The translations under genes were made by a program, and so were the position numbers. This document shows, in pieces, positions 60,627-64,000 of a stretch of DNA of 64,000 nt (position 1 is the first letter of the stretch; every line of letters begins with the position of its first letter). A model generated the notes under the pieces. It saw nothing but the letters and a program-made list of their open reading frames with translations, searched no databases and was not told where the DNA came from. The DNA is from Pedobacter kyungheensis (GTDB lineage Bacteria; Bacteroidota; Bacteroidia; Sphingobacteriales; Sphingobacteriaceae), in the NCBI RefSeq assembly GCF_000812965.1, contig NZ_JSYN01000012.1:1-64000 (forward strand). Direction: 5' to 3'.

Positions 60627-61739
60627 ATGTATTTAAATATGAGAAAGTTTGCTGCTACAATCGTACTACTGGGTTTGGCTTTTACTGCATTTTCGCAGGT
60701 GGTAAGCTTAAATGCCAATGAAATTAAAAACCTTAAAAAACAGATCAAAAGCAACCCCGAAACCGGGAAACTATATGCAGACTTTGCAAAAAATGCTTCA
60801 AACTGCCTTGCTGAGCAGCCTAATCCTGTTGATACCATCCGCACGGAAGGTTTATTAAAAGGCAATCCTAAAAAAGAACGTACGCGGCAGGCATTAGCCG
60901 ATATGAACAAGATGTTTGCCTTGGCTTTACAGTACCGTTTAAGCGGTGATCAAAAATATCTCCACAAATGTGTAGAATTTCTTGAAGCCTGGGCAAAGAT
61001 TAACCGGCCTAACGGCGATCCAATTGATGATACCAATCTGGATAAAGCAGTAGAGGCCTACGATCTGATTAAAGCTGACATAGAGCCTGCCGCCAAAAGT
61101 ACAATTGAAAAGTGGCTTAGCGAAACAGCGTTGACAGAAATTAACAGCAAACGCATGAAAGCGGGAAAGGGCACAGCCATTAACAACTGGAATGCCCACC
61201 GCTTAAAAGTAGTTGGTGAAATTGGTTACGCATTAAACAATGCTGATTTTATTATCTGGACTATCGAAAACCTTAAAAGCCACATCAATATTAATTTGTA
61301 CCCTGATGGCACGAGCCTCGATTTCAAAGAGCGCGATGCCATGCATTACCACATTTACGATTTAGAACCCATGCTTAAGCTGGCCATTATCATCGATCGG
61401 GCAAAAGGAACTAATTTTTACACCTACGAATCGCCAAAAGGATCATCGATCCGCAAATCGGTTAACTGGCTAATGCCTTATGTAAAGGGAGAACAGCAAC
61501 ATGAAGAATATGTACATACTAAAGTAAAGTTCGACCGCGACCGGGCGAAGAATAACGAAGCGGGATTTGCTCCTGGAACCATGTTTAAACCAGATTTAGC
61601 ACTACCCGTAATCAGGTTAGCCGTATACTTTGACCAGAGTTTACTCAGTGTACTTCAATCAGTAAATGGTAAAGAACAAAGCTGGCAGGGTGTTTTAGAT
61701 CAGTTGCAACGGGATAGCGCTAAAGTTCAAAATAAATAA
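60627..61739 (+). CDS. Alginate lyase family protein (PL5-like alpha/alpha toroid), secreted
   Basis: The 370-residue protein has a signal peptide (hydrophobic residues 9-22, cleavage near AFSQ) and an all-helical toroid domain. AINNWNAHRLKVVGEIG (about residues 188-204) matches the catalytic NNHxxW-like region of PL5 alginate lyases in altered form. RDAMHYHIYDLEPMLKLA (about residues 234-251) provides the Arg, His and Tyr expected for beta-elimination. A second ATG at 60639 (MRKFAATIV) is an equally good start. It may cut a uronic-acid polysaccharide in the periplasm; the true substrate is not shown. The gene ends directly before the GbsR palindrome. Confidence 0.8.
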   Translation: MYLNMRKFAATIVLLGLAFTAFSQVVSLNANEIKNLKKQIKSNPETGKLYADFAKNASNCLAEQPNPVDTIRTEGLLKGNPKKERTRQALADMNKMFALALQYRLSGDQKYLHKCVEFLEAWAKINRPNGDPIDDTNLDKAVEAYDLIKADIEPAAKSTIEKWLSETALTEINSKRMKAGKGTAINNWNAHRLKVVGEIGYALNNADFIIWTIENLKSHININLYPDGTSLDFKERDAMHYHIYDLEPMLKLAIIIDRAKGTNFYTYESPKGSSIRKSVNWLMPYVKGEQQHEEYVHTKVKFDRDRAKNNEAGFAPGTMFKPDLALPVIRLAVYFDQSLLSVLQSVNGKEQSWQGVLDQLQRDSAKVQNK

Positions 61740-61763
61740 ACTTTCAATAATTTTTGAAAGTTT
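61738..61763 (+). promoter_or_regulatory. Perfect palindrome, likely operator of the GbsR/MarR regulator
   Basis: AAACTTTCAA (61738-61747) and TTGAAAGTTT (61754-61763) form a perfect 10-bp inverted repeat with a 6-base spacer. Its core, ACTTTCA-N8-TGAAAGT (61740-61761), recurs upstream of the DCC gene. The right arm contains the -33 TTG of the regulator's promoter, so a bound dimer would block transcription. It could also serve as a weak terminator for the preceding gene. Confidence 0.7.
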
Positions 61764-61783
61764 AATAAAACATTATATCTTTG
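61754..61783 (+). promoter_or_regulatory. Promoter of the GbsR/MarR regulator
   Basis: TTG (61754-61756), 19-base spacer, TATCTTTG (61776-61783): a perfect TTG-N19-TAnnTTTG. The ATG begins only 3 bases after the -7 box, implying a leaderless mRNA. Confidence 0.85.
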
Positions 61784-61786
61784 TGT

Positions 61787-62293
61787 ATGGAATTAGCAGC
61801 AGCAAAATTAAAATTCATAGAAGCCTGGGGTAAACTGGGCTCAGAATGGGGCATTAACCGCACCATGGCACAAGTTCATGCTTTATTGCTAATTTCTGCC
61901 GAAGCGCTTACTACGGAAGAAATTATGGAAACGCTGAGTATCTCAAGAGGGAATGCCAACATGACCCTCCGCGATTTAATTGGCTGGGGATTGATTGAAA
62001 AACAACACAAAGCCGGCGAGCGTAAGGAATATTTTTTTGCAGATAAAGATGTATGGAATATTGCACGCCAGGTGGCCAAAGAGCGTAAAAAAAGAGAGTT
62101 GGAGCCTGTTTTGAAAGTTTTAAACGAGCTCTCCAATGTTGATGGAGACGATAAAGACCCTGAATTTAAGACTTTCAAAAAATCGATTACAGATATAAAC
62201 AAACTGGCAGGCAATGTTGATAAAACTTTGGAAACCATGCTCAAAGCGGAAGAAAACTGGTTCTGGGGATCGATATTGAAGGTGTTTAAATAG
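61787..62293 (+). CDS. GbsR/MarR family winged-helix transcriptional regulator
   Basis: The 168-residue protein has a winged-helix DNA-binding domain at about residues 22-85: AQVHALLLISAEALTTEEIMETLSISRGNANMTLRDLIGWGLIEK, with the wing KAGERKEYFFAD. A helical C-terminal dimerisation part follows. This is the GbsR-like branch of the MarR family. The frame opens at a TTG (61781) within the promoter; the ATG at 61787 is the first proper start and the next Met would remove part of the first helix. It probably controls its own gene and the DCC-epimerase genes through the shared palindrome. The ligand is unknown. Confidence 0.88.
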   Translation: MELAAAKLKFIEAWGKLGSEWGINRTMAQVHALLLISAEALTTEEIMETLSISRGNANMTLRDLIGWGLIEKQHKAGERKEYFFADKDVWNIARQVAKERKKRELEPVLKVLNELSNVDGDDKDPEFKTFKKSITDINKLAGNVDKTLETMLKAEENWFWGSILKVFK

Positions 62294-62321
62294 AGATGCT
62301 AGATGTGAGATATGAGATTGG

Positions 62322-62372
62322 AGTAGTAAGTATCAAGTAGTAAGTATTAAGTAGTGAGTATTAAGTATCAAG
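62322..62372. repeat. Tandem 14-bp repeat, three copies plus a partial
   Basis: AGTAGTAAGTATCA (62322-62335), AGTAGTAAGTATTA (62336-62349), AGTAGTGAGTATTA (62350-62363), then AGTATCAAG. It lies in the spacer between the regulator and the DCC gene. Such short tandem units are common intergenic material in Pedobacter-like genomes. Confidence 0.85.
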
Positions 62373-62469
62373 ACATATTCATCCTAAACGCTCACGATTA
62401 AGCACCAAGTGTTAAACCCTAACCCTTAAAATGCCTTACACTTAAGTTCGGCTTTATTTTTTAAACATA

Positions 62470-62491
62470 ACTTTCAGTTTTTACTGAAAAT
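62470..62491 (+). promoter_or_regulatory. Second copy of the GbsR-type palindrome, before the DCC gene
   Basis: ACTTTCA (62470-62476), 8 bases, TGAAAAT (62485-62491): same half-sites and same 22-base length as the site at 61740-61761, with one change in the right arm. It also contains a perfect TTTCAGT/ACTGAAA inverted repeat. It lies 17 bases before the ATG of the DCC gene. No convincing -7 box was found between it and the start. Confidence 0.6.
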
Positions 62492-62508
62492 ACTAAAATT
62501 TAAAGAAA

Positions 62509-63324
62509 ATGAAAACACTCCAAAATCACATCATCCTCTTTGATAATGAATGCCCCATGTGTTACGCCTATACCAAAACGTTTATTAAAACTGGTATGCT
62601 GGATAAAAATGGTCGTGAAGCTTATCAAAGCATGCCTGCTAATATTTGTCCGCTGGTTGACAGGCAACGTGCAGCCAATGAAATTGCCCTGGTGAACACG
62701 CAAACTGGCGAGGTAACTTATGGCATCCAAAGCTTGTTTAAAATTATCGGCCATGCTCTGCCAATATTTAAAAAACTATTCTCATTTGGCCCCTTTGTTT
62801 ATGTCATGCAGCGGTTTTATGCCTTTATTTCTTACAACAGAAAGGTGATTATCCCGGCAAAAATTAAAGCAAATACCATACAGCCTAGTTTTAAAATCCA
62901 ATATCGGCTGGTTTATTTACTTTTTACCTGGCTGGTTACGGCTTATATTTTAACTGCCTATGCCGGTCTGTTAACCCACTTTGTGCCTTTGGGTAGCAGT
63001 TATCGCGAATACTTGATTTGTGGCAGCCAAATATTTTTTCAGGGAATCATTATGCTCTTTTACCGGAAAGATAAACTTTGGGACTATCTGGGTAATATGA
63101 TGACTATTTCTTTTGCAGGTTCACTTTTGCTTTTGCCTGCACTTGTTGTTTCTCATTACTTTCAACTCAATCCTATACTATTTATGCTTTATTTTTTAAT
63201 GGTAGCCGGAATCATGTTTATCGAACACCTCCGCCGCAGCAGCATTTTAAACCTGGGCTTAACCATGAGTATAACCTGGGTGCTTTACCGTTTAATTGTT
63301 CTGGTCTTAATCTTAGTATTCTAA
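62509..63324 (+). CDS. DCC (DUF393) thiol-disulfide oxidoreductase-like domain protein with membrane C-terminus
   Basis: The 271-residue protein has an N-terminal thioredoxin-like DUF393/DCC domain: HIILFDNECPMCYAYTKTFIK, with the CxxC at residues 18-21, and QSMPANICPLVD. VTYGIQSLFKIIGHALP lies at about residues 70-86. The second half has four to five membrane helices (from about residue 135), so the domain is membrane-tethered. The family is thought to be redox active, but no substrate is known. The next gene starts one base after the stop, and the GbsR-type palindrome precedes it. Confidence 0.82.
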   Translation: MKTLQNHIILFDNECPMCYAYTKTFIKTGMLDKNGREAYQSMPANICPLVDRQRAANEIALVNTQTGEVTYGIQSLFKIIGHALPIFKKLFSFGPFVYVMQRFYAFISYNRKVIIPAKIKANTIQPSFKIQYRLVYLLFTWLVTAYILTAYAGLLTHFVPLGSSYREYLICGSQIFFQGIIMLFYRKDKLWDYLGNMMTISFAGSLLLLPALVVSHYFQLNPILFMLYFLMVAGIMFIEHLRRSSILNLGLTMSITWVLYRLIVLVLILVF

Positions 63325-63325
63325 A

Positions 63326-64000
63326 ATGATGAAATACAGCAAAATTGTTCTGGCTGGTGGCAATGGTTATTTAGGTCAGGTACTGGCCAAACATTTCGCC
63401 CCTATAACTAATGAAATTGTAATCCTTTCACGGAAAGCCCAGCCTGCAAAGGGTAATATTAAAACGATAGTTTGGGATGGAAGGACAGCAGGCGAATGGG
63501 CCAGTGCGCTCCAAAATGCCGACCTGCTTGTAAACCTTTGCGGCAAAAATGTAAACTGCAGATATACGCCCAAAAACAAGGAAGAAATTATCCAATCACG
63601 ATTGCAACCAACTGCTTTGCTGGGCGAAGTGATTCATCAAATGGAAAATCCACCTAAACTTTGGATCAATATTACTTCTGCAACCATATATCGCCACGCC
63701 GAAGACCGTTACCAGGATGAAATACATGGCGAAATGGGTACTGGTTTTTCAGTAGAGGTTTGTAAAGCCTGGGAAAATTACTTTTTTGAAAGCAATACAC
63801 CGAAAACCAGGAAAATTGCTTTAAGAATGGGCATTGTGCTGGGTAAAACAGATAGTGCTTTTCCACGGCTGCTTAATCTGGTAAAGGCTGGTATGGGGGG
63901 CAAACAAGGCAGCGGCGAACAGTACGTAAGCTGGGTGCACGAGCAGGACGCTGCCTTGAGTATAGCATGGTTGCTTCAACATGAAGAAATTAACGGAATT
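63326..64000 (+). CDS. TIGR01777 family NAD(P)-dependent epimerase/SDR protein (3' end beyond window)
   Basis: At least 225 residues are encoded before the window ends in the open frame. KIVLAGGNGYLGQVLAKHF is the Rossmann nucleotide-binding start. LVNLCGKNVNCRYTPKNKEEIIQSRLQPT is the characteristic TIGR01777 segment (NLxGxxVNCRYT), and INITSATIYRHAEDRYQDE with KAWENYFFE the family's central region. RKIALRMGIVLGK and YVSWVHEQDAALSIAWLL follow. Two ATG codons stand at the start (63326 and 63329), one base after the DCC gene stop, so the two are co-translated. The substrate of this family (YfcH-like) is unknown. Confidence 0.88.
   Translation, partial: MMKYSKIVLAGGNGYLGQVLAKHFAPITNEIVILSRKAQPAKGNIKTIVWDGRTAGEWASALQNADLLVNLCGKNVNCRYTPKNKEEIIQSRLQPTALLGEVIHQMENPPKLWINITSATIYRHAEDRYQDEIHGEMGTGFSVEVCKAWENYFFESNTPKTRKIALRMGIVLGKTDSAFPRLLNLVKAGMGGKQGSGEQYVSWVHEQDAALSIAWLLQHEEINGI

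Follow-up and report, generated by a model that had tools for sequence, protein, structure and literature searches.

The two palindromes that lie on either side of the REG gene in the window (the whole 64 000 nucleotide stretch analysed here, C4:1-64000 of a 6.36 Mb genome) are most likely binding sites of this adjacent GbsR/MarR-type regulator. We consider it probable that REG is an autorepressor which would occlude promoters at sites of one class (P), act as a roadblock to elongating polymerase at sites of another (D), and control a joint membrane/redox regulon. The sites, their division into classes, the promoter geometry, their conservation and their co-occurrence with REG were read from the sequences themselves, and negative autoregulation together with control of the DCC and TIGR01777 genes, as proposed in the initial annotation, appears to be the best-supported reading of them, since the site is kept at the REG promoter, tracks targets that are not linked to REG and is rare where REG is absent.

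The class P palindrome (61740-61761, + strand) is ACTTTCA-N8-TGAAAGT (ACTTTCAATAATTTTTGAAAGT), with the TTTG of a -33 element in its right arm, and the class D palindrome (62470-62491, + strand) is ACTTTCA-N8-TGAAAAT (ACTTTCAGTTTTTACTGAAAAT), in which ACTG replaces TTTG. These are, as first noted, the sole zero-mismatch matches within the window, and the only positions in it that score 13 or 14 of 14. The half-sites and spacing had been described as the same in both, which holds for the N8 spacing and the left arm; the right half-sites differ at position 21 (G or A), and the sites are of different classes. The REG gene (168 aa, winged helix; 61787-62293, + strand) lies between them. Seventeen bases (62492-62508) separate the D palindrome from the ATG at 62509 of a gene for a DCC-type membrane protein (271 aa, CPMC motif; 62509-63324, + strand), a candidate DCC1-like thiol-disulfide oxidoreductase whose CxxC motif and membrane helices were seen by eye and whose PF04134 score, 26.5 bits, falls slightly short of the cut-off of 27.8. 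It is followed by a TIGR01777/DUF1731 SDR enzyme (306 aa; 63326-64000 and on to C4:64246, + strand), a full-length SDR that belongs to TIGR01777 (254.7 bits, cut-off 207.35; DUF1731 42.5 bits versus 27), and then, just outside the window, by an SRPBCC-like gene (150 aa; C4:64252-64704) labelled by eye and with no Pfam match. The operon thus has the gene order DCC, TIGR01777, SRPBCC-like.

Upstream of REG, the stop codon of an alginate-lyase-like gene (PF05426; 60627-61739) directly abuts the P palindrome. Among Pedobacter loci such a gene often precedes REG, but it was not seen there in the other genera compared, and for this reason it is probably not part of the regulon.

Only near-exact copies of the palindrome proved to be informative, because the signal in the whole genome at up to two mismatches (90+112) was close to that of a reversed-motif control (88+83). 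Zero-mismatch matches were found at four places in the genome and a strong match with a single mismatch at one more. When the core pattern with an A/T spacer was used instead, 13 places were found (control, 2 strand hits), and those that score 13-14 of 14 are the same five strong sites; the remaining eight reach 10-12, and no family gene lies within the 3 kb stretch around them. Each of the five strong sites is just upstream of one of four units. Beyond the two in the window, a pair 113 bp apart (C9:147902 and C9:148015) precedes an operon of two small membrane proteins (115 and 128 aa), and one (C13:179535) lies 42 nt before the gene for a 302-aa membrane SRPBCC-like protein, which has a Polyketide_cyc2 match below the cut-off and is followed by a gene for a Luciferase-domain protein. 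There are seven further places with one mismatch and, leaving out C16:97597 and C18:12718, these (C12:353921, C13:163885, C14:16725, C14:81696 and C29:7133) are all inside reading frames. The search of the genome for more copies that the initial annotation had suggested thus gave no near-exact motif that is frequent without relation to promoters. The small regulon that it had predicted is supported as far as the regulator and the DCC/TIGR01777 genes are concerned, but is larger, as it also takes in the SRPBCC-like gene, the operon of the two small membrane proteins and the membrane SRPBCC-like/Luciferase-domain unit.

In favour of a chance likeness of the two AT-rich palindromes, the 38 matches with three mismatches in the window are no excess over shuffled versions (mean 31.7; 38 reached in 21 of 100). 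However, no position with a score of at least 13 and an intact TTTCA-N8-TGAAA core occurred in 60 Markov versions of the window, the strong sites in the genome sit at genes of the same families, and the site is conserved at the REG genes of relatives. Chance likeness is ruled out by this conservation, and we give it practically no weight.

The claim that the first palindrome overlaps the -33 box of the regulator gene was upheld. The TTTG at 61753-61756 in the right arm of P is followed, after 19 nt, by the -7 box TATCTTTG (61776-61783, + strand), which ends 3 nt before the ATG of REG, and the promoter matches the phylum consensus TTTG/TANNTTTG as given in an excerpt of PMC6847099; sigma-70 type promoter scans are unsuited to the Bacteroidota. 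The arrangement is kept in relatives, with the -33 TTTG within the right arm in 108 of 139 P sites, TAnnTTTG after the P site in 131 (at an offset of 35-38 in 129) and a distance of 3-4 nt from the -7 box to the ATG in 121. As 4-5 nt lie between the -7 box and the start site in probable promoters of Flavobacterium johnsoniae (PMC6847099, excerpt), the REG transcript would start at or 1-2 bases from the ATG and is probably leaderless (window 61776-61789), a geometry that the relatives share; according to the same excerpt of PMC6847099, most F. johnsoniae transcripts do have leaders. Occlusion is the simplest reading of an operator that lies over the -33 box.

A palindrome scoring at least 11/14 within 200 bp was present upstream of 139 of 141 distinct REG genes, compared to 58/2820 Markov controls and 0/141 coding controls. 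The 141 were obtained from 167 REG loci by requiring 150 nt of upstream sequence and a unique last 100 nt. In 128 of the 139 the P site starts at -46 to -49, and the core TTTCA...TGAAA is almost invariant. All 44 distinct named rows, from 17 genera that include Pedobacter, Mucilaginibacter, Rufibacter, Dyadobacter, Chitinophaga, Rhodocytophaga, Puia and Pontibacter, have a P site; they are what remains of 80 named loci after the distinctness filter and the omission of loci not titled to genus, with genus labels set by hand. In a genus of another family of the same class, P was found in 19/19 loci with the -7 box at an offset of 36-37 in all 19, and in other classes it was found in all three loci read (L319-L321), where REG is about 50 % identical. 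The rows are related by descent, and these counts are not of independent events. A simple reading-frame finder missed or mis-started REG in some loci (e.g. L113, L118 and L280), which were hence shown as 'no REG'. Across the phylum, 122 of the 395 genomes sampled have matches to the REG family (E <= 1e-30), and the site was checked in part of these, weaker matches (E about 1e-34 to 1e-48) being left out of the site reading.

The presence of the site also follows that of REG. A clear REG is found in 83 of the 119 genomes of the genus sample (85 if two weak 29 % matches are counted), and exact sites were found in 20 of 21 genomes with REG and in 3 of 10 without it; in these 31 genomes there were 56 strand matches versus 9 for the reversed pattern. 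In the sole genome with REG and no exact site (G014), REG is at the start of a contig. Among the three genomes that have an exact site without a clear REG, two have it inside a reading frame, and the third has it before small membrane protein A in a genome that is 78 % complete. Some of the exact sites in REG genomes are also inside reading frames (L063 and L069).

Sites of class D (at least 11/14 within 350 nt) were found in 121 of 139 relatives, compared to 91/2780 Markov controls, and are absent or score under 11/14 in the remaining 18. The positions that form the -33 element in P read ACTG or TCTG in 96 of the 121 D sites and TTTG in just two. No -7 box was found at a fixed place near the D sites of relatives, nor downstream of the D site in the window. 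From 45 nt upstream to 50 nt downstream of D, TAnnTTTG occurs four times in 120 loci, two of these at one position, and in the 300 nt upstream of D it occurs 14 times in 121 loci. The distance from the REG stop codon to D varies from under 10 to about 300 nt, and the logos of relatives show an orientation of D that is fixed relative to transcription, which counts against a simple roadblock, as a roadblock needs none. In addition, D is not essential, because it is missing or weak in the 18 loci above and REG is followed by the membrane SRPBCC-like gene with no D between them in L266, L268 and L270.

Of 121 loci, 93 have a run of at least five T that stops 7-9 nt short of D, compared to 4/138 for the P sites of REG. 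A T-run is found 6-10 nt upstream of D in 30 of the 38 named rows, over ten genera, though the feature is present in many lineages and not in all; in the genus from another family just one D site out of 19 has it at 7 nt. A hairpin abuts the T-run in 78/117 loci versus 513/2340 shuffles, and stems of at least five pairs do so in 77/98 loci versus 591/1960 partly shuffled sequences, an excess that is real but moderate. In the window, the corresponding element (62433-62462, + strand) is a weak hairpin, GCC...GGC (-5.0 kcal/mol, z -1.2), with a T6 run at 62457-62462 that ends 7 nt before D, and a consensus terminator scan found none. The hairpin and T-run before D look terminator-like in many relatives and only weakly so in the window.

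The leaders of the small membrane protein operons show a similar arrangement (L221 was left out of these calls). Among the 18 that have both sites, 15 have P followed by a T-run and then, after 7-9 nt, by D; in 13 of these 15 a hairpin of -3 kcal/mol or better precedes the T-run. P and D are 112-118 bp apart in 17 of the 18. Six leaders have no D (L233, L234, L236, L238, L240 and L243), and in these the T-run ends 6-7 nt before P instead. In leaders L223, L225, L226 and L229, the stretch from P to the hairpin often begins with a sequence like GTGAAAGGGAAATAG, which may be a mini reading frame of about 4-7 codons without a leader; this start is not kept in the genome to which the window belongs. 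One could speculate that in many Bacteroidota the D site is part of a composite element, in which the T-run of an intrinsic terminator stops 7-9 nt short of the operator; repressor bound to the DNA would stall polymerase at the terminator and so set the read-through from the regulator gene or a short leader into the targets, with a single regulator combining occlusion at P and a terminator-coupled roadblock at D. We regard this as doubtful, as the hairpin in the window is weak, the terminator scan was empty, the genus from another family has the T-run at 7 nt before just one of its 19 D sites, and a T-run precedes P in six leaders.

The sites go with the target genes. After omission of two distant homologues from the 32 membrane SRPBCC-like loci, a P site of its own precedes the gene at 18 of the 19 loci where it stands alone, with TAnnTTT[G/A] at an offset of 35-38 in 17 of the 18, and no site was found within 200 bp of it in any of the 11 loci in which REG, DCC or TIGR01777 comes before it. 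Similarly, the DCC gene is unlinked from REG in one genome, and there it has a P-type site with a -7 box. Elsewhere, REG, DCC, TIGR01777, membrane SRPBCC-like and Luciferase-domain genes form a single gene run (e.g. L099, L110 and L111). A second clade of the genus has a REG of about 45 % identity, which immediately precedes the small membrane proteins in each of the six loci read (L043-L047 and L050), with TIGR01777 next in three. REG is present in 36 of 37 genomes with small membrane protein A (30 of these 37 loci were taken for sequence reading) and in 31 of 32 with the membrane SRPBCC-like protein, against a base rate of 83/119, and the REG-less exceptions are genomes that are 78 % and 81 % complete. 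No TIGR01777 homologue above 32 % identity was found in the 22 genomes without a clear REG, and the 12 distant homologues (29-32 %) in REG-less genomes have no site of at least 12/14 nearby.

The two small membrane proteins (L006:9067-9817) are related to one another, sharing invariant N, Y and G and a near-invariant E; neither matches Pfam, nor does either come near an NCBIfam cut-off. A member of the small membrane protein B family was modelled as three long helices (pLDDT 79), and this predicted structure gave no significant fold match in the PDB (best E 1.4). In some relatives (L058:2309-2776 and L064:998-1486), the DCC protein is without its N-terminal redox (CxxC) part; the membrane part is kept, as is the operator, which suggests that it is the membrane part that matters. 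Neighbours in some relatives are DUF2071 (PF09844 confirmed in L308) and, occasionally, a fatty-acid desaturase (PF00487 confirmed in L189).

REG had been called GbsR-type, and this is correct in the wide sense of the MJ223-like MarR regulators, which have a MarR-type winged helix, are about 150-180 aa long and align to MJ223 over the DNA-binding and dimer domains. REG matches MarR_2 (32.5 bits, cut-off 27) and MJ223/1ku9 (E 2.5e-21, over profile positions 3-152), and belongs to this family. The name does not extend to the choline-sensing osmostress subgroup (GbsR, OpuAR, OpcR and YvaV), which is distinguished by a cluster of aromatic residues near the linker that form a choline/betaine cage. 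By eye, REG does not have this cage, W90 being the sole aromatic between residues 85 and 126 and not kept in the REG2 rows of the alignment inspected; the equivalence of positions was deduced from descriptions in an excerpt of PMC6207618, the alignment itself containing no GbsR sequence. REG also scores 41 bits against the CudC equivalog NF047500, where the curated cut-off is 218. For both reasons, choline is unlikely to be its signal. The anatomy of the operator fits a GbsR/MarR repressor that would bind an inverted repeat as a dimer and be released by a ligand. A role in defence was considered and rejected, as PADLOC gave merely weak winged-helix matches.

Three other readings accept that the palindromes are real. 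With the same regulator and operators, D could lie over a non-canonical promoter of its own, made up of the T-run and a T-rich spacer, and the DCC unit would then also be repressed by occlusion; this we hold to be a secondary, less probable possibility. It would account for the position of D right before the ATG of the next unit, for its fixed orientation and for the near-fixed distance of the T-run, and the frequent hairpin before D would insulate the unit from REG transcription. According to an excerpt of PMC6847099, promoters of F. johnsoniae have a weak -33 motif and more pronounced AT-rich elements. However, the -7 box is nearly invariant in the promoter set described there, and the four copies of TAnnTTTG near D contrast with the 131 of 139 that a similar analysis gave at P.

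A different regulator, co-inherited with REG, could bind the palindromes and REG be merely one of its targets, given that binding of REG to the sites is itself deduced from their sequence and that the genome probably has other MarR-type genes (one was recognised by eye in L010). We think this improbable, as the site is fixed at the REG promoter in 17 named genera and three loci of other classes and its presence tracks REG; a site at a regulator's own promoter is the usual signature of autoregulation. It is more improbable still that the palindromes are RNA hairpins, serving as attenuators or stability elements, rather than DNA operators. Though D would fall in a read-through transcript beside a terminator-like hairpin, P and D have the same arms and 8-nt spacer, and P, lying before the -7 box, is not transcribed with REG.

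The reading that we prefer, a single autorepressor acting at both classes of site, can be set out as follows. Dimeric REG would bind the 22-bp palindrome as its operator. At the P sites, which are those of the REG promoter, the unlinked membrane SRPBCC-like/Luciferase-domain unit, the upstream site of the small membrane protein operon and the unlinked DCC gene, it would cover the -33 element and exclude RNA polymerase, giving negative autoregulation and joint control. The D sites, which separate REG from the neighbouring gene or fall within the leader of the small membrane protein operon, have no recognisable promoter of their own, and REG bound there would most likely block polymerase that had started at the upstream P promoter. 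A ligand, or the redox or membrane state, would release REG and induce a conserved set of mostly envelope proteins, namely the small membrane proteins, the DCC redox membrane protein, the TIGR01777 SDR and the SRPBCC-like proteins, and in some relatives DUF2071 or a fatty-acid desaturase. Beyond binding, we infer repression, the roadblock, the signal and the physiological role from this arrangement. As the set comprises membrane proteins, SRPBCC-like proteins, an SDR, DUF2071 and the occasional fatty-acid desaturase, our guess is that the role is, most simply, a membrane or lipid maintenance response.

A link to light is not supported, as a photolyase-related gene was noticed next to REG in only two of the loci read (L099:4658-6166 and L110:5209-6711, in both just upstream of REG and on the same strand; PF04244 confirmed for L110) and no photolyase family was recognised by eye among the 32 most frequent REG neighbour clusters. 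LitR and CarH, unlike REG, are regulators of the MerR type. The likeness to their light regulons in Pseudomonas lies in a small regulon with an SDR, a fatty-acid modifying enzyme and a photolyase (PMC9758184, excerpt).

CydE of Alishewanella, which controls cytochrome bd with sulfate as inducer, is like REG a GbsR-type regulator without the aromatic cage (PMC6207618, excerpt), but its gene neighbourhood differs, no cyd genes being seen by eye among the same 32 neighbour clusters. The closest solved structure to REG by sequence is MJ223 of Methanocaldococcus jannaschii (1ku9), which unlike REG is archaeal and for which the excerpted texts of PMC6207618 and PMC7396694 give no established operator or function. 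A review of the GbsR family states, in the part excerpted, that the gene neighbourhoods of Bacteroidetes members give no consistent picture (PMC6207618), and among the matches listed in the open-licence literature we found no prior account of this regulon or of terminator-coupled repressors. A conserved operator with a recurring set of targets provides such a consistent neighbourhood, and a testable regulon, for Bacteroidetes members, with one switch tying together several poorly understood proteins (TIGR01777, DCC, DUF2071 and two related families of small membrane proteins that match nothing in Pfam).

A close parallel is offered by GbsR and OpcR of Bacillus subtilis, which belong to the GbsR/MJ223 lineage and are likewise small winged-helix MarR-type repressors; their operators are A/T-rich, and OpcR occludes the -35 region while GbsR acts as a roadblock (PMC7396694, excerpt). 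Since these two modes are found in GbsR and OpcR, a single regulator using occlusion and roadblock is plausible by analogy. REG seems to use both geometries, and it differs from them in targets unrelated to glycine betaine, in the absence of the aromatic choline cage and in a palindrome spacer of 8 bp versus the 4 bp reported for the GbsR operator. Comparison of P with D sites would be a natural way to test occlusion against roadblock within one regulator.
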